Of a stretch of 24,042 nt of DNA, positions 3,766 through 23,050 are shown piece after piece (position 1 is the stretch's first letter; every line of letters starts with the position of its first letter). A program made the translations under genes and the position numbers. Under the pieces are notes generated by a model that was not told the DNA's origin, did not search any database, and saw only the letters and a program-made list of their open reading frames with translations. The DNA is from a virus, in the IMG/VR virus record IMGVR_UViG_3300032560_000113, positions 1 through 24,042 of that record; one strand, 5' to 3'.

Positions 3766-4410
3766 ATGGCTACTTACACGCCCTCTTGGGTAATGACCTA
3801 TGACTCGCTGAATGCAATCGTTCTTCAATATTTGGAGCGGTCTGATCAAGCGACGATTAACGCCATCCCTACTTTTATCACCCTTGCTGAATTTGAGATT
3901 GCCCAAGAGATCAAAACCTTGGGTCAGTTGCAGATTGTTGAGTCAACGACCATTGCAGGCAACCCAGTTCTTCAAAAGCCTGCCAGATGGCGTAAAACCG
4001 TATCAATGAACTACACCAATAGCAGTGGTGTACGAACCCCAATTTTGCTTCGTAAGTACGAGTATTTGACCAATTATTGGCCAAATAACACGCTTACTTC
4101 GGCGCCCGTTTACTATGCTGATACCAATTGGGATCACTGGTATCTAGCTCCAACACCAGATCAAGCATACACCTTAGAGGTGTTGTACTACGAACGCATT
4201 CAACCTTTGAGTTCTGACAATCAAACAAATTGGTTGACTCAGAATGCTCCAACGGCCATGTTGTTTGGCACTCTTTTGCAAGCAATGCCTTTCTTGAAAA
4301 ACGATCAACGGCAAATTTTCCAACAAAAGTACACCGAGGCTATTCAGTCACTCAAGACTGAAGACACTTCACGTCTTGGTGATCGTCAATCTGTTGCAGT
4401 GGACTCATGA
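3766..4410 (+). CDS. Head-tail adaptor-like virion protein
   Basis: A 214-residue protein without cysteine, starting at ATG 3766 behind GGGAG. The sequence begins with YDSLNAIVLQYLERSDQATI, then ITLAEFEIAQEIKTLG and a beta-rich middle (VLQKPARWRKTVSMNYT, ILLRKYEYLTNYWP, YYADTNWDHWYLAPTP), ending in a helix. This matches the phage adaptor proteins related to SU10-type podoviruses as I remember them: an N-terminal helical part that binds under the portal and W-rich beta strands. Its place upstream of a gp10/nozzle-like gene fits a neck or tail-assembly role. The gene ends in ATGA with the inserted GIY-YIG gene. Confidence 0.65.
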   Translation: MATYTPSWVMTYDSLNAIVLQYLERSDQATINAIPTFITLAEFEIAQEIKTLGQLQIVESTTIAGNPVLQKPARWRKTVSMNYTNSSGVRTPILLRKYEYLTNYWPNNTLTSAPVYYADTNWDHWYLAPTPDQAYTLEVLYYERIQPLSSDNQTNWLTQNAPTAMLFGTLLQAMPFLKNDQRQIFQQKYTEAIQSLKTEDTSRLGDRQSVAVDS

Positions 4411-5042
4411 AATACGCAATCTATATCATCACCAATACCGTGAATGCCAAGCAATATGTTGGCATTACGGCAGATTTGGAGCGTCGATGGAAAAGACATC
4501 GCAACGCTAATGAAGGACAATACATTCATCGAGCCATCAAGAAATATGGTGTGGATGCGTTTGTGTTTACGCATGTTGCAGACGCTTTTGATGCAGAGTC
4601 AGCAAAAATGATTGAGCGCATGTTGATTGTCGAGCACAATACCAAGATGCCTCACGGCTACAACATGACCGATGGTGGCGATGGAACTATGGGCATGATC
4701 AAAACTGAAGATCACAAGCAAAAAATTCGTGAGTCAAACAAGAAGACGTGGGACAGCAGGCCAGACTTAAAAAAGGCAATTGGCGAAATGAATAGCGTCC
4801 TGAAAAAAGGTAAACCCAGTGTCAAAAAAGGCATCCCAAGCGGTCGGAAAGGCATAGCTCACTCCCCTGAACATGCCGCAAAAATTAAAGAATCTTTAAA
4901 TACGCCAGAATCAAAAGCAAAACGAAGTGTGTCAGCTAAAAAGGCTTTGAACGATCCACAGTGGAAAGCAGAGCAAAGCGCTCGATTGAAAACAATTTGG
5001 GCTATTAGAAAAGCCAAGAAGGAAGCAGAATCATGTCTGTAA
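4407..5042 (+). CDS. GIY-YIG homing endonuclease with NUMOD3-type repeats
   Basis: A 211-residue protein. Residues 1-90 form the GIY-YIG domain: KYAIYIITN...KQYVGIT carries the two halves of the name motif, LERRWKRH holds the usual catalytic arginine, and the acidic IERMLIVEHNT follows. Residues 95-200 are basic and contain repeated short DNA-binding motifs of the NUMOD3 kind (TEDHKQKIRESNKK, SPEHAAKIKESLNTPESKAK). Such enzymes are selfish elements that cut cognate intron-less or gene-less alleles. It sits between the adaptor and a fibre-like gene, with a four-base overlap upstream and a ten-base overlap downstream, so it is expressed in the virion operon instead of being in an intron. Confidence 0.85.
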   Translation: MKYAIYIITNTVNAKQYVGITADLERRWKRHRNANEGQYIHRAIKKYGVDAFVFTHVADAFDAESAKMIERMLIVEHNTKMPHGYNMTDGGDGTMGMIKTEDHKQKIRESNKKTWDSRPDLKKAIGEMNSVLKKGKPSVKKGIPSGRKGIAHSPEHAAKIKESLNTPESKAKRSVSAKKALNDPQWKAEQSARLKTIWAIRKAKKEAESCL

Positions 5043-6298
5043 GCTACACAAACCCATACACAGGACAGACGATTAACCCATCACAAGTGGGTTATGAAAA
5101 TCTAACGCTCACAACCACATACACAGCGCTTCAATGGCCTGTCAATGGAAATACGACTTCTGTTGTTGCTAACATCATTGAAGCTACAGCTAACGTAAGC
5201 CCTGCGTATGTTGTTTTACCTCCTGCGACGCAAGTATCAGTTGGTCAAGCATTCATCATTAGAAACATTGGTTCAACCAATGCGTTTACGGTTGTTTCTC
5301 AGAACGCCAATTTAACGTACAACACAATTCAAACGGTTCCTACCGCGCCTACAACTGCAACAGTCAACACTTATTACATTTACCTAACTGACAATTCAAC
5401 TGTTCAAGGTACATGGTCTACTGTTGCTTTGGGTGTTGGTACTTCAGCCGCCAGTGCCGCCGCTTTGGCGGGACTTGGTTTGTTGCCGCTGAATACTACT
5501 TTGAACACCAATACGCAAGTTGCGTTGGTTTCTTCTGCTTACACTTTTAATTCAAGCGATGGATCGCAATTGTTTGTATGGACAGGTGGCGCAGGCACAA
5601 TGACCTTACCTACGGTAGCTAGTGTTCCATCTGGTTGGTATGTAATTGTCAAAAACGATGGCGCAGGCATATTGAATGTTACTGCACAAGGTTCAAGCAC
5701 AATTGATACAACAACATCAACAGTACAAATTCAAATAGCAAACTCTAGTGTTTTTGTATCCAATGGTTCAAATTGGTATACCTATGCTTTAGCACAGCAA
5801 AATGTATTCAATTACACCCAATTGTATTTAAGCCTTACTGGAGCCGCCGCTACGGTTACTTTAACCGCCGCTCAAGCCAAGAATGTTATTCAGCAGTATG
5901 CAGGTATTCTTTCTCAGAATACAACAATTATTGTTCCTCAGACGGTTCAGCTTTATTCAATTAGGAACAGTACATCTGGCGCATACACATTAACCATTTC
6001 AACTGGAGTAACTGGTGGTACAACATTCAACGTAACATCAGGTACAGCGGCACTTTTAGTGTGTGATGGAACTAATGTTTTCAGTGCAACATCATCATCA
6101 ACAAGTTTTACGTCACAGTTGACGTTAGGAAATGGTTCTGCGACCAATCCATCATTGAACTTTTCTGGAGATACAACTACTGGTTTGTATCTTGCCGCTT
6201 CAGGGCAACTAGGATTTGCAATTGGTGGAGTAAGCGCAGGAACATTAACGTCTAGCGGATTATTGTTACCTGTTGGCATTCAAGGCGGGACATTCTAA
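5033..6298 (+). CDS. Fibre-like virion protein
   Basis: A 421-residue, Ser/Thr/Asn/Val-rich protein with almost no charged residues and one cysteine. It is made of repeated beta-strand blocks (YVVLPPATQVSVGQAFIIRN; MTLPTVASVPSGWYVIVKN; YTLTISTGVTGGTTFNVTSG), each about 90-110 residues apart, resembling tail or head fibre shafts that bind surfaces. The end, NPSLNFSGDTTTGLYLAASGQL, matches the S-F-x-GDxxTG(I/L)Y segment that in many phage fibres precedes the chaperone tail; here the protein stops shortly afterwards at GGTF. It may work with the S74-type fibre at the left edge. Its stop overlaps the next ATG by one base (TAATG). Confidence 0.65.
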   Translation: MSVSYTNPYTGQTINPSQVGYENLTLTTTYTALQWPVNGNTTSVVANIIEATANVSPAYVVLPPATQVSVGQAFIIRNIGSTNAFTVVSQNANLTYNTIQTVPTAPTTATVNTYYIYLTDNSTVQGTWSTVALGVGTSAASAAALAGLGLLPLNTTLNTNTQVALVSSAYTFNSSDGSQLFVWTGGAGTMTLPTVASVPSGWYVIVKNDGAGILNVTAQGSSTIDTTTSTVQIQIANSSVFVSNGSNWYTYALAQQNVFNYTQLYLSLTGAAATVTLTAAQAKNVIQQYAGILSQNTTIIVPQTVQLYSIRNSTSGAYTLTISTGVTGGTTFNVTSGTAALLVCDGTNVFSATSSSTSFTSQLTLGNGSATNPSLNFSGDTTTGLYLAASGQLGFAIGGVSAGTLTSSGLLLPVGIQGGTF

Positions 6299-8373
6299 TG
6301 ACTGTAAAAGTTGCCGTTCTTCAAGCAGGTGCAGGCATCCAAAGGGATGGAACTGTATTTTCTGCTCCTTCTTATGTAGACGGTCAATGGTGCCGATTCC
6401 AATATGGTCGTCCTAGAAAAATGGGCGGTTATGAGGGCGCGTTTTTAAATGCTCCTAGCATCAGCCGTGGCATGATCATGCAGTCCCAAAGCGGACAAAC
6501 ATGGGTGGTTTCTGGATTTAACAGTAGCATTCAACAATGGACTATTGGTAATAGTGATGCGATTGGGTCTGGCCCACAAGAAGTATTTGTGATTGGAAGC
6601 ATCACAACGATTGGAATTGCAACCGCAGGTGCAGGATATACAAATGGTACATACACAAGTATCACGCCCATAACAAATAGTGGAAATGGTTCTGGAGCAA
6701 CAATAACTGTTGTTGTATCTGGGGGAATAGTTACAACTTTGACCGTTACTGCAAGTGGTTCTGGTTATGGTTATGGGGATACGTTTAGTTTTTCAACATC
6801 AAGTCTAGGTGGTGGATCTCCAACAACTTTATTTGTTGGAACGATTACATCGGTCACATATGATGGTCTAAATTTAGCTCCTTCAAACAATTACTATGTG
6901 GCCGATACAAATGCGCTGTGGCAATTTGATACGGGTTTCGATCCGTTTGGGACGGGCAATAATAATTTGATTGCGCACCCTGGCGACAATCTGCAGTACA
7001 TAGACAGCCAAACCAACGTCAGGCCATTGATTGGTACGTTTACAGGTACAAGTTTGACGCCTGTTGGCGTTTTTACAGCATCGGGAACAACAACAAACGG
7101 AAGCCCTAACGTTACTTTTGCAACTACAAACATTGCAATGGGTGCGGGTGTATCGGTTTATGGGACGGGTATTCCTGCTAACACCAAGATTGTTTCAGCC
7201 ACCACAACGGGTGGAGTTTGGACGGTTACATTAAATAACAATGCCACTGCTTCTGGCACAGTGACTTTGACCTTTGACAACAATATTGCTGTAAGCGGTG
7301 GTGTTGTAATGCTTTATCCATATCTTTTTGTGTACGGAAATTATGGGTTGATCCAAAACTGTTCAGCAGGCGACTTTAACAATTGGACGTCAGCAGATGC
7401 CAACGCCAATAACGTATCCTCTACAAAGGTCGTTAAAGGCATGGCTCTTCGAGGAGGAACAACATCTCCTAGTGGACTGTTTTGGACAACTGATTCTGTT
7501 GTGAGGGTGACTTATTCGCCCCAAACTGTAGGCACGTCAACCATTTATTGGCGCTATGACTTGATCACTCAGCAGTCTTCAATCATGTCAAGCCAGTGCG
7601 TGATTGAGTATGACGGCATCATCTATTGGGTAGGTGTTGATAGATTCTTAATGTATAACGGTGTTGTATCTGAAGTTCCCAATACACAAAATACCAACTA
7701 TTTCTTTGACAACATCAATATTAATCAAAGACAAAAAGTATGGGCTACGAAGATTCCTCGGTGGGGGGAAATTTGGTTTTTCTATCCACGCGGTAACTCA
7801 ACCGAATGTAACGACGCCATCATTTACAACGTCCGTGAAAAATGTTGGTATGACGCAGGCTTGGCAGATGGTGCCAATCGTTCTGCAGGCGTCTTTTCTG
7901 AAGTGTACAGAAAGCCAATTTGGGCGGGTAATGTGGCCAATTCAGTAGGAACTTATACGCTTTGGAACCACGAAGTTGGAACCGATCAAGTCTATTTGAA
8001 CAACGTCAACGCCATCAATTCTTACTTTGAAACCAATGTATTGGGAACTGGTGTATTGGGAACTGGTGCAGGATTGGTGGGTGCTCCTTCTGGTGGAGAT
8101 AACCTCTGGACTCGTTTAGAGCGCGTTGAGCCTGACTTTGTACAGTCTGGACAGATGAGTTTGACGGTCACTGGTAAGGGCTATGCAGACGATACAGACC
8201 AAACTTCGAGCGCTTATACATTTGACTCAACAACCCTTAAAATTGATATGAAGGAACAGCGCCGTGAGATGCGTTTGAGGTTCACAAGTAACACTCAAAA
8301 CGGCAACTATTTCATGGGCCGAGTTGTATTGAGTGTCGAGACAGGCGACGTTCGCGGAACGGGAAATCCATGA
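6298..8373 (+). CDS. P22 gp10 / nozzle-like tail protein with two inserted beta domains
   Basis: A 691-residue protein. The N-terminus (AGIQRDGTVFSAPSYVDGQWCRFQYGRPRKMGGYE) and C-terminal half (GLFWTTDSVVRVTY, WRYDLITQQSSIMSSQ, IIYWVGVDRFLMYNGVV, WGEIWFFYP) give recurring W/Y blades as in the beta-propeller of packaged-DNA stabilisation or nozzle proteins of P22/SU10-type podoviruses. These proteins form the lower tail ring. Two low-complexity Gly/Thr blocks interrupt the fold at residues about 100-180 (GAGYTNGTYTSITPI, GSGYGYGDTFSF) and about 258-330 (SVYGTGIPANTKI, TASGTVTLTF); similar decorative modules occur in many phage structural proteins. Family placement is by pattern recognition. 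Confidence 0.6.
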   Translation: MTVKVAVLQAGAGIQRDGTVFSAPSYVDGQWCRFQYGRPRKMGGYEGAFLNAPSISRGMIMQSQSGQTWVVSGFNSSIQQWTIGNSDAIGSGPQEVFVIGSITTIGIATAGAGYTNGTYTSITPITNSGNGSGATITVVVSGGIVTTLTVTASGSGYGYGDTFSFSTSSLGGGSPTTLFVGTITSVTYDGLNLAPSNNYYVADTNALWQFDTGFDPFGTGNNNLIAHPGDNLQYIDSQTNVRPLIGTFTGTSLTPVGVFTASGTTTNGSPNVTFATTNIAMGAGVSVYGTGIPANTKIVSATTTGGVWTVTLNNNATASGTVTLTFDNNIAVSGGVVMLYPYLFVYGNYGLIQNCSAGDFNNWTSADANANNVSSTKVVKGMALRGGTTSPSGLFWTTDSVVRVTYSPQTVGTSTIYWRYDLITQQSSIMSSQCVIEYDGIIYWVGVDRFLMYNGVVSEVPNTQNTNYFFDNININQRQKVWATKIPRWGEIWFFYPRGNSTECNDAIIYNVREKCWYDAGLADGANRSAGVFSEVYRKPIWAGNVANSVGTYTLWNHEVGTDQVYLNNVNAINSYFETNVLGTGVLGTGAGLVGAPSGGDNLWTRLERVEPDFVQSGQMSLTVTGKGYADDTDQTSSAYTFDSTTLKIDMKEQRREMRLRFTSNTQNGNYFMGRVVLSVETGDVRGTGNP
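8038..8067 (+). repeat. 15-bp tandem duplication in the gp10-like gene
   Basis: GTATTGGGAACTGGT occurs twice head to tail (8038-8052, 8053-8067), encoding VLGTG twice. It is an in-frame slip in a loop of the virion protein. Confidence 0.85.
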
Positions 8374-8621
8374 TTTCGTACGATCCTCGCGGAATGACAT
8401 GGGATCAGTACAATAAGCTGATGGAAGAGCAGTTTGCGTCCAATCAGCTAGGGCATGTGCCTGAAGAGAATTGGAGAACATGGGTGGACGGCATGAATGG
8501 TATTGGTTATTTTGTCCAATCAGGAATACCAGATCACCGTCCATTTGATCATTGGCAAGATTGGGCAATGGCTATGGCGGGCATCATGTCGATTTCGCCT
8601 AACTTGGGGAGCACATATTGA
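8370..8621 (+). CDS. Small virion-block protein, 83 residues
   Basis: Begins at ATG 8370, overlapping the gp10-like stop by four bases. The protein is Trp-rich for its size (MTWDQYNKLMEE, NWRTWVDGM, HWQDWAMAMAGIM) and probably helical, with no membrane segment or signal. Comparable small proteins with a C-terminal F..WQ.WA..L.G.M pattern appear between nozzle-like and internal-protein genes in related phages as I remember them. Function unknown; likely a small structural or assembly component. It overlaps the next gene by four bases (TTGA). Confidence 0.55.
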   Translation: MISYDPRGMTWDQYNKLMEEQFASNQLGHVPEENWRTWVDGMNGIGYFVQSGIPDHRPFDHWQDWAMAMAGIMSISPNLGSTY

Positions 8622-8986
8622 AACCGTCCGACGTCATTACAGCCGATTCACATAATCGAAACTTAGACCCTAAAAAGGTCATGGGAGCCGCCCAAGTAGC
8701 AATCAAAAAGGGCGGCAAATTATTTCATCACGGTAAAACGTCACTGCTTTTGGAAAAGTTGAGTGATGGGGATTATTCAACCCATTTGTTTACCCAAGAT
8801 TCTCCAGTTTTATTGGCTAGAGCTTTGGCTTTGTTTTATAGAAAAATTGAGAAAAGTGACATTCGCATCATTTATGGTGATGCCACTGGGCCCATGCTTA
8901 ACTTGCTTAGACGATTAGCAAGACAAGTTGGCGCTCCTATCAAGGATTCTGACCGTCATGGTTTTACATGGATGATTAAATTATGA
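8618..8986 (+). CDS. Conserved small phage protein, unknown function, 122 residues
   Basis: The best start is TTG 8618, which overlaps the previous stop as TTGA and gives the N-terminus MKPSDVITADSHNRNLDPKK; the next in-frame ATG would remove about 21 residues. The protein alternates strands and helices: a beta section (GKLFHHGKTSLLLEKL, STHLFTQDS) then helices (LARALALFYRKIEK, LNLLRRLARQVGAP) around a strand IRIIYGD. It has the layout of a small alpha/beta fold. Similar proteins directly preceding the internal-protein gene are familiar in this phage type. Its stop overlaps the ATG of the cysteine-rich gene by four bases. No enzymatic motif is seen. Confidence 0.55.
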   Translation: MKPSDVITADSHNRNLDPKKVMGAAQVAIKKGGKLFHHGKTSLLLEKLSDGDYSTHLFTQDSPVLLARALALFYRKIEKSDIRIIYGDATGPMLNLLRRLARQVGAPIKDSDRHGFTWMIKL

Positions 8987-10980
8987 GCAATTATTCAGGC
9001 TTTGGTGGCTTACAAACACAAAACACTGGTGCTCAACTTCATACACCAAATATTGAGCCAAATGACATTTTGCCTTGCGGACAAGCAACGCCACACTATG
9101 GTGGTGGTGGTGGTTTACTGAGTGCGGCTCTCGATATTGCTACTGGCGGTGCCAGTAGTTTTTTATGCGTACTTGAAGATGCGGCTTGTGCAATCTGTGC
9201 AATTTGCGCAATTGATAGTGCGGCATGCGTTGTTTGCTCTGCATCATGTTTTGCATGCTCTGCTTCTTCTGCGGGTTGTGCAACCTGTGCAACCTGTGCA
9301 ACTTGTGCAAATTGTGCAAATTGCACATCATGCGCTAATTGCTGTACAAGCGGATGTTGCACAAGTGAATGTTGCACAACTAAGTGTTGCAAAACTGAAT
9401 GTTGTGCAAGTCAATGTTGTACAACGCAATGTTGCAATACTAAGTGCTGTTCTACTCAATGTTGCAATCCTCAATGTTGTGTAAATGGATGTTGTTCAAC
9501 TCAATGTTGTAACACATGTTGCAAGAGCGGATTATGCTGTGTAAGTTGTTGCACATCTTGCTCTTGTTGCACTACCTGTTGCACTAGTTGCTGTAAATGC
9601 TCTTGCGTTGATTGCTGTTCTACCTGTTGCACTAATTGCTGTTCTTGCACATCTTGCTCTTGTTGCACTACTTGTTGCACAGATTGCTGTGCATGCACTT
9701 GCTGTACAAATTGCTGTGGCTGTTGCACATGCGATTGCTGTGCATGTTGCACATGCGATTGTTGTGCATGTTGTACTTGTGATTGCTGTGTTTCTTGTTG
9801 TACTTGTTGTACTGCTTGCTGTACTTGCTGTACAGCTTGCGGTTGCTGTACTTGTTGTACTGCTTGCTGTGCTTGCTGTACCGATTGTTGCACTTGCTGT
9901 ACAGCTTGCGGTTGCTGTACTTGTTGTACTGCTTGCTGTGCTTGCTGTACCGATTGTTGCACTTGCTGTACAGCTTGCGGTTGCTGTACTGCTTGCTGTG
10001 CATGCTGTACTGCTTGCTGTGACTGCTGTTCTTGCTGTTGCTCTTGCAAAAATAAGAATCACAAAAATAAAAAAAGCAATAATGTTGGTAAAAAACCCTC
10101 CAAAAATGTTGCCAAACCAGTTTCTAGCGGAGCAGGAAGCAATGCTGGTAGTGGAGCCTTATGCGGTCAAGCTTCAGAATTGGTCGGTCATGCAGGAAAT
10201 TTAGGAATTGACACTGAAAAAGGCTTAACTCAGATAGGTGGTGGCTTAGGTGCAAATCCCGATATGGGCATGAAAGAAGGAGAAATGCTTGCTCAAGGCG
10301 GTCTTGCTCACTTTGCCAAAGGTGGATCAAGCAAAGATTGCTGTACTGACTGTAAATGTTGGGTGAAGATATTGAACAAAGGTTTGAAATGTGCTGAACC
10401 TGATTTCAAGTGTTCTGCATGCACCATGCTGAGAAGCCAAACCAATCCAAATTTGGGCAATATTACTCTGCACTCTTTGAGACAGATGAAGTGTGGAATC
10501 ACAGGTAGTGCTGACGGTGGATTGGCGCACGCCTATAAGGCGGCAACTCCTAAAGGGCACAATCCTGAGTTCATCACTGGCGTGACAGGCTACTACGCTT
10601 GTGGTGGCGGTACAGGCCAATCTGACGACATTCCTGCGATGCTTCATGACGGAGACTACGTTATGGATGCTGAGACCGTATCGGCTCTTGGAGACGGTTC
10701 TAGCAAGGCGGGCATGCATGTCTTGGAAGGCTTCCGTAAACAGCTACCACACAAAGAAACAGTTGGGTCTAATCCTGTTCCTGCAAAAATTGCAGACGGG
10801 GAGTATGTTTTCCCTTCGGCGTTTGTCACGGCGCTAGGAGGAGGGGATAATAAGAAAGGTTCAGAAATTCTTGATGGATTGCGAAAGAAATTACGAGATC
10901 ACAAGCGTTCTGCACCTTTGGATTCAATCCCACCAAAGGCAAAGACCCCAATTGACTACATCAAAAAGGGAAAGAAATAA
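8983..10980 (+). CDS. Virion-type protein with a giant cysteine-rich domain
   Basis: A 665-residue protein. Residues 1-60 are Gly-rich and ordinary. Residues 62-355 contain about 137 cysteines by hand count, close to half. Cys is spaced every third residue at 99-120 (CATCATCATCANCANC), then as CC every five residues at 120-176 (TSGCC TSECC TTKCC and so on), then as nearly continuous CC pairs separated by T, A, D, S or G. A Lys/Asn linker follows (about 356-380). Residues 400-665 resemble a known phage virion family: GGLAHFAKGG, and two copies of a DGDYV/DGEYV module (about 548-590, 597-640). A few extra cysteines continue (DCCTDCKCW, 452-460). Disulphide cross-linking or metal binding is the obvious inference. 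The C-terminal family match gives confidence that it is a real virion gene. Confidence 0.75.
   Translation: MSNYSGFGGLQTQNTGAQLHTPNIEPNDILPCGQATPHYGGGGGLLSAALDIATGGASSFLCVLEDAACAICAICAIDSAACVVCSASCFACSASSAGCATCATCATCANCANCTSCANCCTSGCCTSECCTTKCCKTECCASQCCTTQCCNTKCCSTQCCNPQCCVNGCCSTQCCNTCCKSGLCCVSCCTSCSCCTTCCTSCCKCSCVDCCSTCCTNCCSCTSCSCCTTCCTDCCACTCCTNCCGCCTCDCCACCTCDCCACCTCDCCVSCCTCCTACCTCCTACGCCTCCTACCACCTDCCTCCTACGCCTCCTACCACCTDCCTCCTACGCCTACCACCTACCDCCSCCCSCKNKNHKNKKSNNVGKKPSKNVAKPVSSGAGSNAGSGALCGQASELVGHAGNLGIDTEKGLTQIGGGLGANPDMGMKEGEMLAQGGLAHFAKGGSSKDCCTDCKCWVKILNKGLKCAEPDFKCSACTMLRSQTNPNLGNITLHSLRQMKCGITGSADGGLAHAYKAATPKGHNPEFITGVTGYYACGGGTGQSDDIPAMLHDGDYVMDAETVSALGDGSSKAGMHVLEGFRKQLPHKETVGSNPVPAKIADGEYVFPSAFVTALGGGDNKKGSEILDGLRKKLRDHKRSAPLDSIPPKAKTPIDYIKKGKK
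9721..9792 (+). repeat. 24-bp repeats in the cysteine-rich domain
   Basis: Three consecutive 24-bp units (9721-9744, 9745-9768, 9769-9792) encode CCTCDCCA, CCTCDCCA and CCTCDCCV. Units one and two differ at one base, the third at several. The unit is built from TGY codons, so the strand carries dense TGC/TGT triplets prone to slippage. Confidence 0.85.
9841..9978 (+). repeat. Perfect 69-bp tandem repeat in the cysteine-rich domain
   Basis: Two identical 69-bp units (9841-9909 and 9910-9978) each encode 23 residues starting GCCTCCTACC and ending CCTCCTAC. A third unit begins at 9979 and matches for 12 bases before diverging, and the last 20 or so bases of the unit also occur just before 9841. 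Identity at synonymous sites indicates recent duplication. Confidence 0.9.
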
Positions 10981-12177
10981 ATGGCTAACTTACTCCAATC
11001 ATCCCAAAATAAGTCAACGTGCGCACCATCGTACTACACAAACTATCTTCAACAGTTAGCAACGTGCGGTCAAGGGGCTGAGAAATGCGCTCAGTTTGTA
11101 GGGGCTCAACCTTTACAGCAACAAGCTTTTTGTACCATTGGTCAAACGGCGGGAGCACAACAACCCACGTTCCAAACTGGAATGGGCTACATTGGTTGCG
11201 CGGCTCAGTCAGGCAGTCAGATTGGAGCTAAAGTTAGCCCTTATTTGGGCGCGGCAACTAGTGCAAGCCCACTTTGCGCGGCTAAACCATTGATCAGTCA
11301 ATCGCAAGGCATGAATTTGGGACAAGTGGCTCAGTGCTACATGAACCCATTCATTCAAAACCAAGTGCAGAATATGTCTGATATTGCTCAGAGAAATATT
11401 CAGCAGAACTTGTCTCCACAAGCCACAGCGGCGATTGTGGGTTCAGGTCAATTTGGTTCACAGCGTGGCGCTCAAGCTTTGGGTCAAGTTGCGGCGAATG
11501 CAGAGCAATGTCTTAGCGCAAACATTGGAAAGATGTTGACCTGTGGATATGGCCAAGCACTAAGTGCGGCAGGTCAAAAAGAGAGCGCATTGGGTCAATT
11601 GGCAGGAACTACAGAGCAAGCACAAGCGGCTCAGAATCAAGCTCAATTGCAAGCGGCACAAACTGCGGCATGCGCACAGTCAAGGCAAGCGGCGGCACAG
11701 CAAGCGGCAGGTCTTGGCATGGGTACGTTGGGTACTCAAGCGGCCGCTCAAAATTTAGCATGTATCAATGCTTTGGCCACGTTAGGCGCTCAGTGCCAAC
11801 AGATCAAACAGAATGCTCAGTGCTACGACTTCACTAAACTGGCAAAAGAAGCTAGTTTGATGCAAGGACAAGCCATTCCAACATCGGTTAAGACAACCAT
11901 GTGCATGTCGCCTTTATCTGCAATTGGCGCGGCGGGTGCGGCGGCCAAAGCATCTGGATTGACATGCTATCTCAGCAATAAACTAGGATGTGTTTTTAAA
12001 GGTACACCTTGCACAATATGCTGTGGAAGTGTAGTCTGTGGAAGTGTAGTCGATGTGTGTAATTACAGCATGGGATGCGGTTCTTTCTTAAACGGTTTGA
12101 TTAAAACTGCTACAGGTGGAAGTGTTGGTTGTGCATCGACCCGTAATCTTGGCGCGTTGCCTGCAAGGAGAAAATAA
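10981..12177 (+). CDS. Cysteine-enriched internal virion protein
   Basis: A 398-residue, Ala/Gln/Gly-rich protein starting right after the stop of the cysteine-rich gene. The core NIQQNLSPQATAAIVGSG and QFGSQRGAQALGQ (about 139-168), followed by long Gln/Ala helices (about 200-245), NALATLGAQ, and AIPTSVKTT.MSPLSAIG near 300, matches a phage structural family I recognise. Its members lie between the DG(E/D)YV-type protein and two larger internal proteins and may be ejected with the DNA. What is odd is about 23 cysteines, spread through the whole length and densest at the C-terminus (CVFKGTPCTICCGSVVCGSVVDVC). Homologues as I remember them are nearly free of cysteine. Function as a structural partner of 8983-10980 is inference. 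Confidence 0.65.
   Translation: MANLLQSSQNKSTCAPSYYTNYLQQLATCGQGAEKCAQFVGAQPLQQQAFCTIGQTAGAQQPTFQTGMGYIGCAAQSGSQIGAKVSPYLGAATSASPLCAAKPLISQSQGMNLGQVAQCYMNPFIQNQVQNMSDIAQRNIQQNLSPQATAAIVGSGQFGSQRGAQALGQVAANAEQCLSANIGKMLTCGYGQALSAAGQKESALGQLAGTTEQAQAAQNQAQLQAAQTAACAQSRQAAAQQAAGLGMGTLGTQAAAQNLACINALATLGAQCQQIKQNAQCYDFTKLAKEASLMQGQAIPTSVKTTMCMSPLSAIGAAGAAAKASGLTCYLSNKLGCVFKGTPCTICCGSVVCGSVVDVCNYSMGCGSFLNGLIKTATGGSVGCASTRNLGALPARRK
12022..12051 (+). repeat. 15-bp tandem duplication encoding CGSVV twice
   Basis: TGTGGAAGTGTAGTC occurs twice head to tail (12022-12036, 12037-12051), duplicating a Cys-containing pentapeptide in the C-terminal cysteine cluster of the preceding gene. It shows cysteines being added by slippage here as well. 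Confidence 0.85.
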
Positions 12178-13688
12178 TGGCAAAAGATGATTTAAAAGAT
12201 TACACATTTAGTGGTGGGTTGGCCAATGTCAATCCACAAGGTCTTTCTGAGCAAGATTTGCAAAAACTTAGAGATATCACTGATCAAAAAATTGAAGAGC
12301 TACAACATCGATATGATCAACCCAATTGGTGGAAGGTGGCCGCAGGGTTTTCAAAGCCCCAATTAGGTGGTTTCTTGGCTTCTGCAAGCAGTGCGGCAGA
12401 AGCTATGGGTGAAAACGTAGAAAAACAACGTGCTCAAATGGCTCCTATTGCTCAGATGCAAATCAATCGTGAGCAATCCAACATGTTGCTTAACCAAAGA
12501 ATTAAACAAAACCAATTATTTAATGCTTGGAAAGCAAGTAAAAAGCCAATGGATGAAGATACTTATACAAGTATTGCCGCTCTTGGAAATGAAACAGAAG
12601 TGGCAAAATCAGCCAAACAATATTGGGATCAAGCCAAAGGTCGTGTTGGTACGATTGGTGATGCTGAAAAGCTTGCTTCACAATATCCACGACTTGATTC
12701 AGCATTTAAAGACTTTATTCAAGCGGGAGCAAATCCTAATGCCGACTCCAATGAAGTTAAGCAAAAGCAAACTCTTTATGAGCAAACGCTGAACGCGGCC
12801 AAGCCACCACAGACTGATGATGCAACATGGGCGGGATTAAGTCGTGAGCAAAAGCAAAAAGCAATTGACAAGTACGCTGAAGATCAACAAAAGATTGGTT
12901 TGACTGATGAACAACGAATGAAAGTTGATCATGATCAAGCCATACCTCGCATGACGATTATGCGCGACATTCGTGATTTGACTTTAGGTAAGGGTCTAAA
13001 AGACTCTACAGTCAAAGATGAAAATGGGAAAGAAGTTACTCTCACAGGACAACAACAAATGCAAAGGTTGTTGGGCATGTTTGGTGGAGACAATCCATTT
13101 GAAATTGTGGGTAGGGCCGCCGCAGACGGTAAATTTGGAGAGCTCTTTAAAGGTGCTGATGACTTGGTTCGTAGGGGCATGATGACGCCTGAAGCACGTC
13201 GTGAGTTTGAAACTTTAGCTAAGTTATTGGCTCAACAGCAAGTGGCTTTGCGTAGTGGTGCTGTTAATCCAACGGATGCGTTTACAGCGTTGCAACAGAC
13301 GGCGACGCCTGGTGTCTATAACAGCCAACAAGCCTTGGTCACCATTCTTGACTTGATGGCCCACAACGAGCGCAACAACGTCGACAAGTACCAATACATC
13401 TTGACCAAAAAGCCTAATGCACGTCGCATTGGCGCTGATGAAAACTTCTACGAAATGCAACGCAAGTTTGCAAAAGAGCACAGTGGAATTGCATTGGGTA
13501 AACCAATGTATGACACGCCAGATTATTATAGTCCTTACACCACTAGACAATCAAAAGAAGAATCAGAAGGAAAATCCAAACCCAATCAAGGTTCTACCAG
13601 AAAATCTCGCATTGTTGGAATGAATGGTAATTGGTGGGAAAGGGATGAGAAAACTGGAAAATTTGTAGATACAGGGGAGAAACCTTAA
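12177..13688 (+). CDS. Large internal virion protein, unknown function, no cysteine
   Basis: A 503-residue protein joined to the previous gene by TAATG. It is highly helical and charged: a coiled-coil-like N-terminus (SEQDLQKLRDITDQKIEELQ), a WWKVAAGFSKPQLGGFLASAS segment near residue 50, then long Gln/Lys helices (EKQRAQMAPIAQMQ, NREQSNMLLNQRIKQNQL). The C-terminus is polar (SRIVGMNGNWWERDEKTGKF). The position directly before a muralytic-type virion protein and the helical character resemble the ejection or internal core proteins of podoviruses. No enzyme motif is seen. The absence of any cysteine contrasts sharply with the two upstream genes. Confidence 0.55.
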   Translation: MAKDDLKDYTFSGGLANVNPQGLSEQDLQKLRDITDQKIEELQHRYDQPNWWKVAAGFSKPQLGGFLASASSAAEAMGENVEKQRAQMAPIAQMQINREQSNMLLNQRIKQNQLFNAWKASKKPMDEDTYTSIAALGNETEVAKSAKQYWDQAKGRVGTIGDAEKLASQYPRLDSAFKDFIQAGANPNADSNEVKQKQTLYEQTLNAAKPPQTDDATWAGLSREQKQKAIDKYAEDQQKIGLTDEQRMKVDHDQAIPRMTIMRDIRDLTLGKGLKDSTVKDENGKEVTLTGQQQMQRLLGMFGGDNPFEIVGRAAADGKFGELFKGADDLVRRGMMTPEARREFETLAKLLAQQQVALRSGAVNPTDAFTALQQTATPGVYNSQQALVTILDLMAHNERNNVDKYQYILTKKPNARRIGADENFYEMQRKFAKEHSGIALGKPMYDTPDYYSPYTTRQSKEESEGKSKPNQGSTRKSRIVGMNGNWWERDEKTGKFVDTGEKP

Positions 13689-15055
13689 TGGACAATGAAG
13701 TACCTTTATCTTCGTATTACAACAACCCTGGCAATTTGAAGCCACCAAAAGGAGTGACCTATGAAGGTCAAGTTGGTGTTGATCCTGACACTGGATTTGC
13801 CATTTTTCAAGACCCTGAATATGGTCACAAAGCTCTTGTTGGCGACATTAGCGCCAAAATTAAACGCGGTTTAAATACGCCTGATAAGTTCATTGATGTT
13901 TACACTCCTAAAGATGACAATAATGAAGAATCTAGAGCAAATTACAAAACACACATTGCAAAAGCATTGGGATTAAAAAGTCCGAATGATCCTTTTCCAG
14001 AAAAATCTGCTGAACAAATTGCAAAAGCGATCAGTGAGTTTGAAAGTGGAAACTATACAAACAAGCCCACAGATATTAATCCTATGTCTGGCAAGTCTTA
14101 TGAAGATACAGCCAAAGATACGGAAAAATCTGGCAAAGCATTTGATGGTAGCGAGCTCAACACAAACAAAGTCTCAGAAGCTGAAAAACTACATCCAAAA
14201 AAAGTGGTGGATGATAGTGATCCAAGAAGTTTACCTGGCGTCCAAAAAGCGGAAAAAAGCGTTTTAGGAACACTAGGAGCTGTTACTGGTGCTTCAACAG
14301 CCGCAGGTATTGAAACAGGCAGAAAGGTTCTTCCTTTGGTGCCTAATATTTACAGCCAAGTAATGGGATTGGATCAAAATATTAATCGCCCATCGACTCG
14401 AATGAGCATGCAAAGTTATTTGAACAGCCAAGTGCCTCACACATTGGATTTGCATTTGTCGGATCTTGAGAAGGAAGTGACAAATGCAAGACGTGCAGTG
14501 AACCCAGGCGTTGCGCCAGTGAAGCTCCGAACTATGTCCGAAGTACAAGACGCACTTAAGGAAATTAAGTTTAAGCCTGAAGAGGTAAAGACAAAGCCTC
14601 GTGTTGAAATGGTTGAAGGTAAGCCAGGCGTTTTCCGTCAAACTGGCGAGTTCACTACCTCTAGAACCCCTGCACAAGCAGGCATTGATTTAACCAAGTA
14701 TGAACGCAACCCCAAAACACCAATCATGAATGAGATCAAGGGTAGCGCCAAAACTGCAGGCAACATTGCTAAAGGCGCTTTTCCATCTATCGGTCGAATT
14801 GGTCTAGGTGCCTTGGGTGGTCTTGGTGCATTGACCAGTGGCTATGATACTTTTGAGCATGCTCGTGAGCATGGTTGGAAAGACCCTAGAACATGGTCAA
14901 AAGCCGCCGCAACCCTTGGTGGCGGCTTGATGATGATCCCAACACCGATGACCGAAGTCATTGGCGGTGGGTTGTCTGCAATTGGGATGGCTCCTGACAT
15001 TTATGATTATTTCCATGATCAAGAGCCAGAGCCATCATCTGCTAAGAAGCAATAG
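13688..15055 (+). CDS. Virion-associated protein with NNPGNL muralytic-type domain
   Basis: A 455-residue protein coupled by TAATG to the previous gene. The N-terminus has the NNPGNL motif (residues 12-17), then GFAIFQDPEYGHKALVGDI, KFIDVYTPKDDNNEESRANY and HIAKALGL. This order (NPGNL, F..F.....G..AL, W/Y-x-P-DNN, Y) matches a domain found in phage structural lysins and ejected virion proteins thought to open peptidoglycan. Residues 120-340 are polar and of unknown role. Residues about 355-445 are Gly/Ala-rich and mildly hydrophobic (IGRIGLGALGGLGALTSGYD, AAATLGGGLMMIPTPMTEVI), suited to membrane insertion. There are no cysteines. Likely the last gene of the rightward virion block; convergent genes follow. 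Confidence 0.6.
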   Translation: MDNEVPLSSYYNNPGNLKPPKGVTYEGQVGVDPDTGFAIFQDPEYGHKALVGDISAKIKRGLNTPDKFIDVYTPKDDNNEESRANYKTHIAKALGLKSPNDPFPEKSAEQIAKAISEFESGNYTNKPTDINPMSGKSYEDTAKDTEKSGKAFDGSELNTNKVSEAEKLHPKKVVDDSDPRSLPGVQKAEKSVLGTLGAVTGASTAAGIETGRKVLPLVPNIYSQVMGLDQNINRPSTRMSMQSYLNSQVPHTLDLHLSDLEKEVTNARRAVNPGVAPVKLRTMSEVQDALKEIKFKPEEVKTKPRVEMVEGKPGVFRQTGEFTTSRTPAQAGIDLTKYERNPKTPIMNEIKGSAKTAGNIAKGAFPSIGRIGLGALGGLGALTSGYDTFEHAREHGWKDPRTWSKAAATLGGGLMMIPTPMTEVIGGGLSAIGMAPDIYDYFHDQEPEPSSAKKQ

Positions 15056-17554: not shown

Positions 17555-18355
17555 ATGAACCGCGTTCTTAAAAGTGTAAAGATTAACAGCGTCCGCATTG
17601 ATGGAGACACGCAGTCACGCGTTGACATTGATGCCAATTGGGTGAGTGGCATTGTTGATGACCTCAAGAATGACATTGACTATGACCCGATTGAAGCGCG
17701 TTTTGATGGTGTCCATTACTGGCTGACAGATGGTTTCCACCGTTATCTGGCAAACAAGCAAATTGGGGCTAAAGAAATCAAGGTTGCGTACTTGCCAGGG
17801 ACGCAATTCGACGCCCAAATCGACAGCTTCAGCGCCAACAGCAAGCACGGCAAACCCCGTACAAGGGCCGATAAACAAAAGGCTGTGGAAAGGGCTCTTG
17901 CTCACCCACAATTGCAAGGCAAAACCAACTATGAGATTGCCAAAATCTGTATGGTTTCTCAGTCTTTTGTGGCCGCTGTGCGTGATCCTGCCAAGAAACA
18001 AAAGCAAGCCGAAAACGTAGAAAAACACTTTAAAAACAAAGGTGAACCAAAAGAAAATACTAGTTTAACTAGTAGTTTTAATACAACACCTAGCGAAAAC
18101 ACCTACGAAGATTGTGGCCCTGACGAAGCCGAACTGAAGGCAAATGAACTGGCTCTACAAGCTGATCAAGACGCCATGTATCAGTTGTTGGAGTCGGACG
18201 ATGCATTGGCTACGGCTTATGAGGAGATCAAGCGACTCAATCATTTGAATGGCCAATTGGAGGTTCGCATCAATGGGCTGATGAATGAAAAGAACGAAGC
18301 CATTAAGTTGGTTAAGAAACTGCAAAAAGAAAACGACAAACTGAAAGCAAAATAA
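17555..18355 (+). CDS. ParB-like DNA-binding protein
   Basis: A 266-residue protein with CTGGAG before ATG 17555. Residues 1-95 resemble a ParB/Srx-type N-terminal domain: VKINSVRIDGDTQSRVDID, DYDPIEARFDG, then WLTDGFHRYLA (56-66), equivalent to the conserved (D)G.HR motif. ANSKHGKPRTRADK follows at 94-107 and a helix-turn-helix at about 124-143 (TNYEIAKICMVSQSFVAAVR). The last 50 residues are a coiled coil (IKRLNHLNGQLEVRINGL, then KKLQKENDKLKAK). In phages such proteins can act in regulation, nuclease activity or replication instead of plasmid partition; no ParA is present here. It overlaps the helicase gene by one base (TAATG). Confidence 0.7.
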   Translation: MNRVLKSVKINSVRIDGDTQSRVDIDANWVSGIVDDLKNDIDYDPIEARFDGVHYWLTDGFHRYLANKQIGAKEIKVAYLPGTQFDAQIDSFSANSKHGKPRTRADKQKAVERALAHPQLQGKTNYEIAKICMVSQSFVAAVRDPAKKQKQAENVEKHFKNKGEPKENTSLTSSFNTTPSENTYEDCGPDEAELKANELALQADQDAMYQLLESDDALATAYEEIKRLNHLNGQLEVRINGLMNEKNEAIKLVKKLQKENDKLKAK

Positions 18356-19893
18356 TGAACACAAACCTAGCGCCGAGTGAGCGTGATGATGGACAAGTAA
18401 AAAATGGATTCCCAGAACCACGACAATTTCAAATCGATGCTCATAACGCCTTGCGCCAAGGGTTCCGTGATGGTCACAAAAACCAGATCATCATGGCCCC
18501 CACAGGCGCGGGCAAAACCTACCTTGGACTACGAATCTGTAATGAAGCGATTCAAAAAGGTAAGCGAGCAGTATTTCTTTGCGACCGAACAACGCTGATC
18601 AATCAGACATCTGCGGTGGCCGACCGATACGGCATGAATCAGCATGGAGTGATCCAAGCCAATCATTGGAGACGTCGCCCAGATGAGTTGTTCCAGATTG
18701 CTTCAGTACAGACCATTGCCAAGCGTGAATTCTGGCCACAGATGGACGTTTTGGTGGTCGATGAAGCGCACACCACTTACAAGGCATGGACTGAATTTGC
18801 AAAGTCTACAAATGCCACTGTGATTGGTTTATCCGCCACGCCCTTTACTTCTGGGCTTGGAAAGATATTCACAAACATCGTAAACGCCACCACAATGCAC
18901 GATCTCACGCAGAATGGTGTGTTGGTACCCATGCGCATCTTTTCGTGCTCTAAGCCCGATATGGAGGGCGCAGAGACCAGAGGCGGTGAATGGACTGACA
19001 AGGCGGCAGAAGAGCGCGAACTCAAGATTGTTGGGGACGTGGTGGCCGATTGGCACAGGTTTGGTCAAAGTAGGAAGACAATTGTCTTTGGCGCGACGAT
19101 CAAGCACTGTGAGGAGCTATGCAGGCAGTTCATTGAATCTGGCGTCATGGCGGCTGTGTTTACAAGCGATACAACGGCTACAGAGCGCGAGTTAATCCTT
19201 AAAGAGTACCGCAAGCACAACAGCAATCTCAAGGTGCTGATATCCGTGGAAGCTTTGGCCAAGGGGTTTGACGTGCCTGATGTGGGTTGTATCTGCGATG
19301 CAAGGCCACTGCGTAAGTCTTTATCCACAGCCATTCAGATGTGGGGGCGTGGTCTGCGTTCTTCGCCTGAGACGGGTAAGAAGGACTGTCACCTTCTAGA
19401 CTTCAGTGGCAACATTGTGCGGTTCTTCGAAGACTTTAACGACATCTATTTCAACGGACTTGAGAAATTGGATGATGGGGATAAGCTCGACAAGAAGGTG
19501 CGTACAAAGGAAGAGTTCGAGCCCAAGGGTTGCCCACGGTGTGGTTATATGCCGTTCCATAAACGCTGTATGGCGTGTGGGTTTGAGAAGATGAGTAAGA
19601 TTTTGTCTGAAGCGTTACCAGGCCATATGCAAGAAATCTTCATCGGCACTGGCCCCAACAAGAAGAAGCTTGCCGACAACGCCGAGCACCTCTGGAACCA
19701 GATTTGCACTTATGCAAGGCACCACTCAGCGCCTGAAAAGCAGTCTGCTCGCGCATGGCATTTGTTTAGGGACATCACAGGTCAAGAGACCCGTTGGATG
19801 TTTAGCAAGGCGCCATCAGTTGAGATCACAAAGAACGTATTTAACAAGATTCAACAAATGAACATTGCCTTTAGGAAGGCTAGTAAAAAATGA
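18355..19893 (+). CDS. SF2 DEAH-box DNA helicase
   Basis: A 512-residue ATP-dependent helicase for phage DNA replication, repair or recombination. Visible motifs: Q-rich start FQIDAHNALRQGF, motif I APTGAGKT (48-55), motif Ia FLCDRTTLINQT, motif II DEAH (136-139), motif III SAT (160-162), motif IV region KTIVFGATIKHCEEL, motif V VEALAKGFDVPDV and motif VI QMWGRGLR (328-335). A four-cysteine zinc-binding knuckle CPRC...CMAC lies at 393-408, after the helicase core. The layout resembles the RecG/UvsW-like phage helicases with a C-terminal zinc module. It is coupled to ParB-like and downstream genes by TAATG and ATGA overlaps. Confidence 0.85.
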   Translation: MNTNLAPSERDDGQVKNGFPEPRQFQIDAHNALRQGFRDGHKNQIIMAPTGAGKTYLGLRICNEAIQKGKRAVFLCDRTTLINQTSAVADRYGMNQHGVIQANHWRRRPDELFQIASVQTIAKREFWPQMDVLVVDEAHTTYKAWTEFAKSTNATVIGLSATPFTSGLGKIFTNIVNATTMHDLTQNGVLVPMRIFSCSKPDMEGAETRGGEWTDKAAEERELKIVGDVVADWHRFGQSRKTIVFGATIKHCEELCRQFIESGVMAAVFTSDTTATERELILKEYRKHNSNLKVLISVEALAKGFDVPDVGCICDARPLRKSLSTAIQMWGRGLRSSPETGKKDCHLLDFSGNIVRFFEDFNDIYFNGLEKLDDGDKLDKKVRTKEEFEPKGCPRCGYMPFHKRCMACGFEKMSKILSEALPGHMQEIFIGTGPNKKKLADNAEHLWNQICTYARHHSAPEKQSARAWHLFRDITGQETRWMFSKAPSVEITKNVFNKIQQMNIAFRKASKK

Positions 19894-21795: not shown

Positions 21796-21822
21796 CTTTT
21801 GAGAACTAACACAGGAGAGAAC

Positions 21823-22488
21823 ATGGATAAGCTTGAGGAATTTCACTACTTCACTACACCTGTCTACGCGGTGAAGAAACCTGATTTTTTACCTGCTGTA
21901 CGGGCTGTGTCTACAAAGTACTTGGATAAATCCAGAGCCCAAAAGAAAACCAAAAGACCGATCACTGTGATGAGTGCGAACTACTCACATGAAAAGTCAA
22001 TTGCTGAATTTGCGCAGTACGTTTCCCAGACTGCATGGAATATTTTGAATGCGCAAGGTTACAACGTGGATGCCAAGGTGACTTACTTCATGGAAATGTG
22101 GAGCCATGAGCACAACCACATGTCTCACATTGATCCACACATTCACCACAATGGATCTCAGATATCTGCGTTTTACTTTTTGGATGTACCGCAGAATGGT
22201 TGCAAGTTGGTGATCCATGATCCAAGGGAAGCCAAGCAAATTGTGAGCTTGCCTGAGAAGACACCTAAGATGGTGACACCTGCGGCCAATCAAGTGGTGT
22301 TTAACCCCGAAGCAGGTACGCTTATTTTGTTCAATGCATGGGTGAGACATTCATTAACGCGTAACCTCAACAAGACGGCACCATTACGTTTTGTTCATAT
22401 GAACCTTTCTGTTGCGCCCACACCCTCTTCTACTTCTAAGAAAAACCAACCACCCAAACCAGTTGAACCCAAAGTGGAGATCATATGA
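21823..22488 (+). CDS. 2OG-Fe(II) oxygenase-like protein
   Basis: A 221-residue protein starting at ATG 21823 behind AGGAGAG; an upstream TTG at 21799 lacks a ribosome site. The core resembles the phage 2OG-FeII_Oxy family: EMWSHEHNHMSHIDPHIHHNG (91-111, likely iron-binding histidines within HIHHN), SAFYFLDVPQNGCKLVIHDPR (115-135), and PEAGTLILFNAWVRHSLTRN (162-181) with the distal His176 and Arg180 for 2-oxoglutarate. Such enzymes hydroxylate protein or nucleic acid substrates; the target in phages is generally unknown. The tail is a Pro/Lys linker (PTPSSTSKKNQPPKPVEPK). The gene follows a conserved TTAGA element and overlaps the next gene by four bases. Confidence 0.75.
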   Translation: MDKLEEFHYFTTPVYAVKKPDFLPAVRAVSTKYLDKSRAQKKTKRPITVMSANYSHEKSIAEFAQYVSQTAWNILNAQGYNVDAKVTYFMEMWSHEHNHMSHIDPHIHHNGSQISAFYFLDVPQNGCKLVIHDPREAKQIVSLPEKTPKMVTPAANQVVFNPEAGTLILFNAWVRHSLTRNLNKTAPLRFVHMNLSVAPTPSSTSKKNQPPKPVEPKVEII

Positions 22489-22721
22489 AATTCAGGATTC
22501 GATTCAATAAGTCACGCGGTCAAGAAGGACGTGGAACTATGGATCACGTCTGGAGAGTGTTCGCTGATGATAAAGAATACCTAGTCAAACACGTTCAGTT
22601 GAACACCATCTGCAAAAGCGAGAAGCAAGAAGGCTCTGATGATTGGAACATTGTTTGCGAAGGCGAGATGACCATCGACAAAGAAACTTCAACAATAACT
22701 ATTGATAACAATCTAATTTGA
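22485..22721 (+). CDS. Conserved small phage protein, 78 residues
   Basis: ATG 22485 overlaps the oxygenase stop by four bases. The N-terminal half KFRIRFNKSRGQEGRGTMDH, then VWRVFADDKEYLVKHVQLN, matches a short phage family I recognise (RGT.DHVWRVFE.GKEY..KH). The C-terminal half is acidic and beta-like (DWNIVCEGEMTIDKETSTITI). No catalytic motif is known to me. The stop TGA lies within the third copy of the TCTAA-N7-TTAGA element, so the end of this gene and the control of the next are interlocked. Confidence 0.6.
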   Translation: MKFRIRFNKSRGQEGRGTMDHVWRVFADDKEYLVKHVQLNTICKSEKQEGSDDWNIVCEGEMTIDKETSTITIDNNLI

Positions 22722-22728
22722 TGTTAGA
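22712..22728. promoter_or_regulatory. TCTAA-N7-TTAGA element, copy 3
   Basis: TCTAATTTGATGTTAGA, followed by CTT, overlaps the end of the preceding gene and ends 37 bases before the chosen ATG 22766 of the next. It shares TCTAATT and TGTTAGACT with the other two copies, despite being constrained by coding. Confidence 0.45.
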
Positions 22729-22765
22729 CTTCCCTTGCCACGATATTGTGGTTAAGGGGAAGACA

Positions 22766-23050
22766 ATGACGAATGAAGAATTAGATATTGCAATCAAAAC
22801 ACATGAAAAGCGGCGCGTAAGATTTATTAAAGAAGAACTGTCAGATGATGATGCACATGACTTGGCTGACAAACTTTTTGAGCGCGATAAAGAGGGCTTT
22901 GATGATAGGCGGCTTTGTTTTGAATGTAAGAGCTATGACGACAAGACTACGCATTGCACGGCTTACAAGGACGGATTAGGTAAGACGTATAGACCCCTTA
23001 GATTTATTCTTCAACGGTGCGATAAATTTGTTTTAAGGGGAAAGAAATGA
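22766..23050 (+). CDS. Small four-cysteine (zinc-binding-like) phage protein
   Basis: A 94-residue protein. ATG 22766 with AAGGGGA upstream is preferred over TTG 22718 or ATG 22721, which lie inside the regulatory element. The N-terminal half is charged and helical (DDDAHDLADKLFERDK), then DRRLCFECKSY and HCTAY, ending FILQRCDKF. Cys51, Cys54, Cys64 and Cys85 suggest a zinc site. The pattern D-RR-LC-EC...C......LQRC.F is familiar from many phage and plasmid proteins of Burkholderiales and Pseudomonas. Function unknown. It overlaps the resolvase gene by four bases. Confidence 0.65.
   Translation: MTNEELDIAIKTHEKRRVRFIKEELSDDDAHDLADKLFERDKEGFDDRRLCFECKSYDDKTTHCTAYKDGLGKTYRPLRFILQRCDKFVLRGKK

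Follow-up and report, generated by a model that had tools for sequence, protein, structure and literature searches.

Two adjacent genes, E1 and E2, in a 24,042 nucleotide stretch of viral DNA (IMG/VR record IMGVR_UViG_3300032560_000113, positions 1 to 24,042; the whole stretch is referred to as the window) encode cysteine-bearing proteins that probably help inject the viral DNA into the host. E1 contains a domain of 294 amino acids of which 137 are cysteine, and E2 carries 23 cysteines. The cysteine is conserved at the codon level, Cys-rich E1 is found only together with Cys-bearing E2, and the two genes are inherited jointly. We give an even chance to the reading that the pair is a swappable two-protein ejection cassette in which dense thiols, as disulfides or metal clusters, build or cure the DNA conduit, i.e. 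a redox- or metal-triggered infection machine.

The cysteine domain of E1

The features of the E1 gene are:

8983..10980, + strand: E1, a 665 aa open reading frame with an ATG start and 148 Cys; putative ejection/internal virion protein
9166..10047, + strand: Cys domain of E1, residues 62–355; 137/294 Cys; low complexity of the CCxxCC and CCxxxCC type
9816..9990, + strand: 69-bp in-frame tandem repeat inside the Cys domain; 2.6 copies, 98% match
10048..10137, + strand: Lys-rich patch directly 3′ of the Cys domain (KNKNHKNKKSNNVGKKPSKN...); net charge +9 in 30 residues
10540..10977, + strand: conserved E1 C-terminal domain with two DG(D/E)YV modules; weak phrog_6090 match over 49 residues

An earlier note, made from the sequence of the window, placed about 137 cysteines at residues 62–355. 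The count is confirmed at 137/294 (46.6%) and the coordinates 9166–10047 are exact. To our knowledge, nearly half Cys over 294 residues (59% over 140 residues in a relative) is beyond any viral structural protein. Other large open reading frames of the window average approximately 0.7% Cys; at that rate the binomial probability of the E1 domain count is near 1e-208, and chance is thus excluded as its source. Over the whole E1 open reading frame the Cys codons are TGT (81) and TGC (67). Tandem repeats with periods of 24, 45, 48 and 69 bp make up part of the domain. The remaining reading frames across the domain are also open because TGY-rich DNA is without stops; only the E1 frame is continuous with the conserved parts on the N- and C-terminal sides.

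The possibility of an assembly artefact in the TGY-rich stretch, which the earlier note had raised against its own reading, is ruled out. Contig L362, from another dataset, shows 99.9% identity to window positions 5109–9524 and enters the same Cys domain with an in-frame difference in repeat length, and diverged versions of the domain are present in relatives L005–L009. A further E1 with 158 Cys in 390 residues is found in L366 (3878–5049, reverse of L234). As this contig stops within the domain, Cys domains of the E1 type probably break assemblies and are hence under-counted.

Codon changes were counted in gapless aligned blocks of the E1 domain. Cys codons show 28 synonymous TGT/TGC changes versus 7 losses, while the corresponding counts for non-Cys codons are 26 and 26. 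Some of the pairs compared depend on one another, and misaligned repeats may raise the count of 28, so that little weight should be placed on an exact p-value. Thus selection seems to keep the cysteine in the domain rather than a DNA repeat. A wrong frame or a DNA-level repeat is ruled out by the codon changes together with the conserved flanks. A change of the genetic code that gives TGY another meaning is ruled out as well, since other genes use Cys at normal rates; the helicase (18355–19893), which bears an ordinary CxxC..CxxC zinc-finger-like stretch, also counts against it.

It is highly improbable that the domain is neutral low-complexity growth, in which TGY-rich repeats slip within a tolerant linker and the cysteine is without function. 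Such growth would be in keeping with the tandem repeats, whose length differs in frame between near-identical genomes, and with the repeated gain and loss of the dense domain described below. However, neutral growth does not account for the codon counts above, for the separate, non-repetitive Cys fixed in E2, or for the presence of Cys-rich E1 only with Cys-bearing E2.

The Cys domain stands where relatives have a disordered, repeat-rich linker, and its description as an expansion inside a real structural-type gene is supported. Cys spacing differs between E1 sequences: CCxxCC in the window, CCxxxCC with Pro in L008, CCxCxCC in L035 and CCC every 18 residues in L023. The E1 of L035 displays 59% Cys over 140 residues, together with Asp/Asn/Lys, and is rich in CxC and CC. 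Since spacing varies freely among relatives while high Cys density is retained, the domain appears to argue for a dense thiol network or sink and against a single folded site. The AlphaFold model of E1 is poor (pLDDT 42), and little of the protein is modelled except for two small C-terminal modules. At one site of the C-terminal domain, most Cys-bearing phages have YYAC and most Cys-free phages YYA(N/Q/D/S).

A Lys-rich patch usually comes immediately after the Cys domain; the median net charge per 30 residues is +9 in Cys-rich E1 versus +4 in Cys-poor E1. The position of the patch, directly after the domain in most Cys-rich E1, would fit a protamine-like role, where domain and patch bind the packaged DNA end and, like the protamines of mammalian sperm nuclei, become cross-linked inside the head, so that the DNA and the ejection proteins are retained and organized. 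Such a role is rather improbable, and it leaves the fixed Cys of E2 and the E2 C-terminal motif unexplained.

TonB-box-like strings (DEIVVTP, DTVTVTG, repeated LPPVTVTGKK) are found in the E1 of L003, L017, L073, L074, L023 and L002. These exceed the shuffled expectation in few members only, and the TonB-box idea is weak.

Gene neighbourhood and known ejection systems

The genes around E1 that bear on its identity are:

3766..4410, + strand: SU10-type head-to-tail adaptor (PF24175 SU10_adaptor, 4e-26; PDB 9nwi, 0.0011, and 7z47, 0.011)
6298..8373, + strand: nozzle-type tail protein (phage VP1 nozzle 8zkm/8zkk, 1.5e-7; phrog_3287, 5e-26)
10981..12177, + strand: E2, 398 aa with 23 Cys scattered along its length; putative DNA ejection protein
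12127..12174, + strand: E2 C-terminal motif GCxS(T/L)xxxG(A/G)LP, ending 2–4 residues before the stop
12177..13688, + strand: E3, third gene of the block; 0 Cys
13688..15055, + strand: E4, lytic virion protein (phrog_873, 8e-15); 0 Cys

The gene order in the window is SU10-type adaptor, nozzle, small genes, E1, E2, E3 and the lytic E4. E1 and E2 are thus situated between the nozzle and a lytic internal protein, as are ejection proteins of short-tailed phages. In the related complete record MW202545, genes for terminase, a portal-type protein and capsid are present, and none is named as a tail-tube gene. Two other genes of the window may be mentioned. A GIY-YIG endonuclease, likely a homing endonuclease, is found between the adaptor and fibre genes (4407–5042, + strand; PF01541), and an 89 aa lipoprotein-like open reading frame with 6 Cys (1799–2068, + strand) adjoins a putative inner spanin and endolysin and looks like an ordinary Rz1-type spanin.

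A comparison of E2 with phrog_4287, annotated 'DNA ejection protein' (PHROGs v4), gave matches for 11 of 43 relatives (best 1.2e-5); the E2 of the window alone is without a match. The E2 homologue in Caulobacter phage GB2A matches phrog_4287 over most of its length (1.6e-9). In phage SU10, gp20–24 are found in the virion and are absent after release, and one has transglycosylase activity; the five ejection proteins are believed to lengthen the nozzle so that it spans the periplasm (PMC9509320). From the phrog_4287 matches of E2 relatives, the gene order and the parallel with SU10 gp20–24, we infer that E1–E4 form the ejection-protein block of a short-tailed phage; homology of the relatives and gene order likewise point to a putative ejection role for E1 and E2. 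PDB sequence searches with E1 and E2 show no relative.

A segment of 49 residues in the E1 C-terminal domain matches phrog_6090, annotated 'tail length tape measure protein' (2e-4). E1 as a tape measure protein is rejected because the match covers only 49 of the 1853 phrog_6090 positions, the rest of E1 is without a match, and the neighbours are short-tailed-phage genes. The suggestion that the domain belongs to a metal-bearing tail, as in the 'Ferrojan horse' hypothesis for iron, finds no support either; E1 is not a tail fibre by position or profile and nothing points to iron.

The SU10/kuravirus apparatus shares with the window the adaptor family, a nozzle-type protein and then an internal-protein block with a lytic enzyme. 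However, no Cys-rich ejection protein is mentioned in the passages of its description considered here (PMC9509320). The P22 and T7 ejection proteins likewise form an internal-protein block and are thought to form a transient trans-periplasmic conduit (PMC8954989), but the words cysteine, disulfide and zinc are absent from that review and no sequence link to E1 was found. Two DNA pattern scans for other cysteine-dense phage proteins showed, besides E1 relatives, almost only simple repeats in shadow frames among the matches listed. The open-access papers, an incomplete set, yielded no account of Cys-rich phage virion or ejection proteins. E1 and E2 thus appear to be a variant of ejection proteins for which a described equivalent was not found in the open-access literature.

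E2 and the coupled cysteine states

The earlier coordinates (9166–10047) cover half of the finding only, because E2 shares the Cys trait. The earlier note was right about the E1 domain, but missed this shared trait, the many Cys-bearing relatives, and the position in a probable ejection block rather than a tail fibre.

Several cysteines of E2 occupy fixed sites. Among the Cys-bearing sequences of the alignment, Cys261 is found in 30/30, Cys308 in 27/30, Cys384 in 29/30 and Cys366 in 24/25; Cys-free sequences mostly have Asp at position 261. Unlike Cys-free members of the family, Cys-bearing E2 proteins also have their own C-terminal extension, a Cys tail that ends in the GCxS(T/L)xxxG(A/G)LP motif (in short GCxSTxxxGALP). 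The motif is present in 37/39 complete Cys-bearing E2 and in 0/16 Cys-free E2. In some relatives (L002, L038 and L045) the extension is full of CC motifs. The E2 homologue of L002 (8736–9974, MW202545) is annotated 'coronavirus S2 glycoprotein'; this is surely a misannotation, perhaps due to its Cys-rich tail. The E2 structure model shows mostly long helices with low confidence (pLDDT 53).

In E2, Cys mostly takes the place of polar, probably exposed residues (D, N, Q, S, T). Mutation bias seems an unlikely source, since going from Asp or Gln to Cys, for example, takes at least two base changes. Polar, probably exposed sites and a high Cys density without fixed spacing are what would be expected if the cysteines reacted with thiols or disulfides of the host envelope, so that the conduit is anchored to a host partner and not to itself. 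This is improbable; no host partner is known, and the dependence of E1 on the state of E2 suggests that the two proteins act on each other.

Relatives were gathered from viral contigs and phage records with E2 and the E1 C-terminal domain as queries, and 55 distinct genomes having both E1 and E2 were used for Cys counts. In 15 of these E2 has 0 Cys, and the E1 has 0, 2 or 4. The other 40 have 7–42 Cys in E2 and 1–148 in E1. The Spearman correlation between E1 and E2 counts across the 55 genomes is 0.85, and Cys-rich E1 is never found beside Cys-free E2. The remaining open reading frames have approximately 0.6% Cys in the Cys-bearing and Cys-free groups alike. With near-copies included, E3 displays 0 Cys in 73/77 loci of the family and E4 in 64/68 loci. 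As E3 and E4 are at zero nearly everywhere and the states of E1 and E2 are coupled, the ancestral block seems to have avoided cysteine, with the two proteins taking it up jointly in one lineage. L060 has 7 Cys in E2, 2 in E1, and retains Asp at the conserved E1 site, which suggests that E2 changed before E1.

With Cys masked, every Cys-bearing copy in the E2 tree is on one side of a single branch (support 97.8), and the same is found in the joint E1/E2 tree (support 88). For the E1 C-terminal domain taken by itself, the tree requires three changes, but one Cys clade is not rejected (p 0.17). A single Cys clade is rejected by the trees of the two flanking genes, nozzle and E3 (p 0.0001, 7 changes each). 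Because these flanking trees reject the clade that the E2 tree supports, the simplest reading is that E1 and E2 would move between phage backbones as a unit, a cassette in which the cysteine states need to match. Inside the Cys-bearing group, where the branching order of these quick trees is not firm, the E1/E2 tree implies 7 gains or losses of the dense E1 domain.

There is no host split by Cys state at the level of Betaproteobacteria/Burkholderiales; such bacterial bins hold both Cys-bearing and Cys-free versions. This host assignment is a lead only, because bacterial bins can contain stray phage contigs. Among 18 records, none has a phage-encoded thioredoxin above the family cut-off; when the genes of 12 records were clustered, no obvious redox gene went with the Cys trait. 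A 2OG-Fe(II) oxygenase gene (window 21799–22488, + strand; PF13759, 9e-14) belongs to a family present in 7/7 Cys-bearing versus 1/5 Cys-free long records, a small sample with no known link to the trait. A conserved 75 aa protein (L103; record G003 22632–22859 and equivalents) adjoins the oxygenase in 5/7 Cys-bearing and 0/5 Cys-free records.

Possible roles of the cysteines

We tentatively favour, at somewhat less than even probability, the reading that E1 and E2 are ejection proteins that form a trans-envelope conduit held together by disulfides. E1 and E2 would be adjacent ejection (pilot) proteins, stored in the head of a short-tailed phage, that exit via the nozzle ahead of the DNA and then build a conduit spanning the host periplasm. 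Cysteine would have entered both proteins of the pair together in one lineage: E2 would have gained its fixed cysteines and the Cys-containing C-terminal tail with the GCxSTxxxGALP motif, and afterwards E1 would have swapped its disordered, repeat-rich linker for the low-complexity Cys domain and the Lys-rich patch. During storage and while the proteins thread out as flexible chains, the thiols may be reduced or metal-capped. The periplasm is an oxidising compartment, and there a dense disulfide network could form within and between E1 and E2, giving a cured conduit. This oxidation step is suggested by cysteine chemistry and the known oxidising nature of the periplasm. Two points stand against a disulfide conduit: disulfides made in the free virion could jam ejection, and CxC/CC-rich versions such as L035 look more metal-thiolate-like.

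The main rival is a metal-thiolate model: within the virion the Cys domains would act as an oversized metallothionein for Zn, Cu or Fe, with the thiols capped or the core condensed as a result, and the metal may be set free in the host. This is unlikely, but could coexist with the disulfide conduit by protecting thiols in the free particle. The window, L005, L028 and L035 mostly have CxC, CC and CxxC spacings, the Cys domains have few aromatics, the Lys patch adjoins the domain, and thiols need protection in an aerobic virion. CxC and CC spacings and few aromatics are also common to metallothioneins and E1. However, E1 is much longer, its Cys spacing is not conserved among relatives, the Pro-rich CCxPx forms (L008, L037 and L052) are atypical of metallothioneins, and there is no metallothionein family match.

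High-sulfur keratin-associated proteins carry CCxxx and CCxPx low-complexity repeats with Ser/Thr/Pro and a variable repeat number, and E1 displays similar repeats (e.g. L008 and L037). Short CC-containing repeats are present in E1 at high density, and the likeness is one of composition only. Keratin-associated proteins differ in that E1 is a phage gene with no Pfam match and 46–59% Cys over 140–294 residues. The earlier comparison with keratin-associated proteins and metallothioneins is thus fair in composition, yet seven family members give no Pfam match to either at E-values up to 10.

The cysteine of E1 and E2 has the look of a chemical switch and not of drift, since E3 and E4 almost wholly lack Cys, as do the E1 and E2 of Cys-free relatives. 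No description of such dense cysteine chemistry was found for any phage DNA-delivery machine, and its carriers are a group of environmental phages. E1 and E2 may offer a genetically encoded, highly cross-linkable protein material. Related phages with Cys-bearing and Cys-free pairs offer a natural comparison with and without thiols; reductants, dsbA hosts and metal analysis could be applied to it directly, and it bears on what keeps transient ejection conduits intact in the periplasm.
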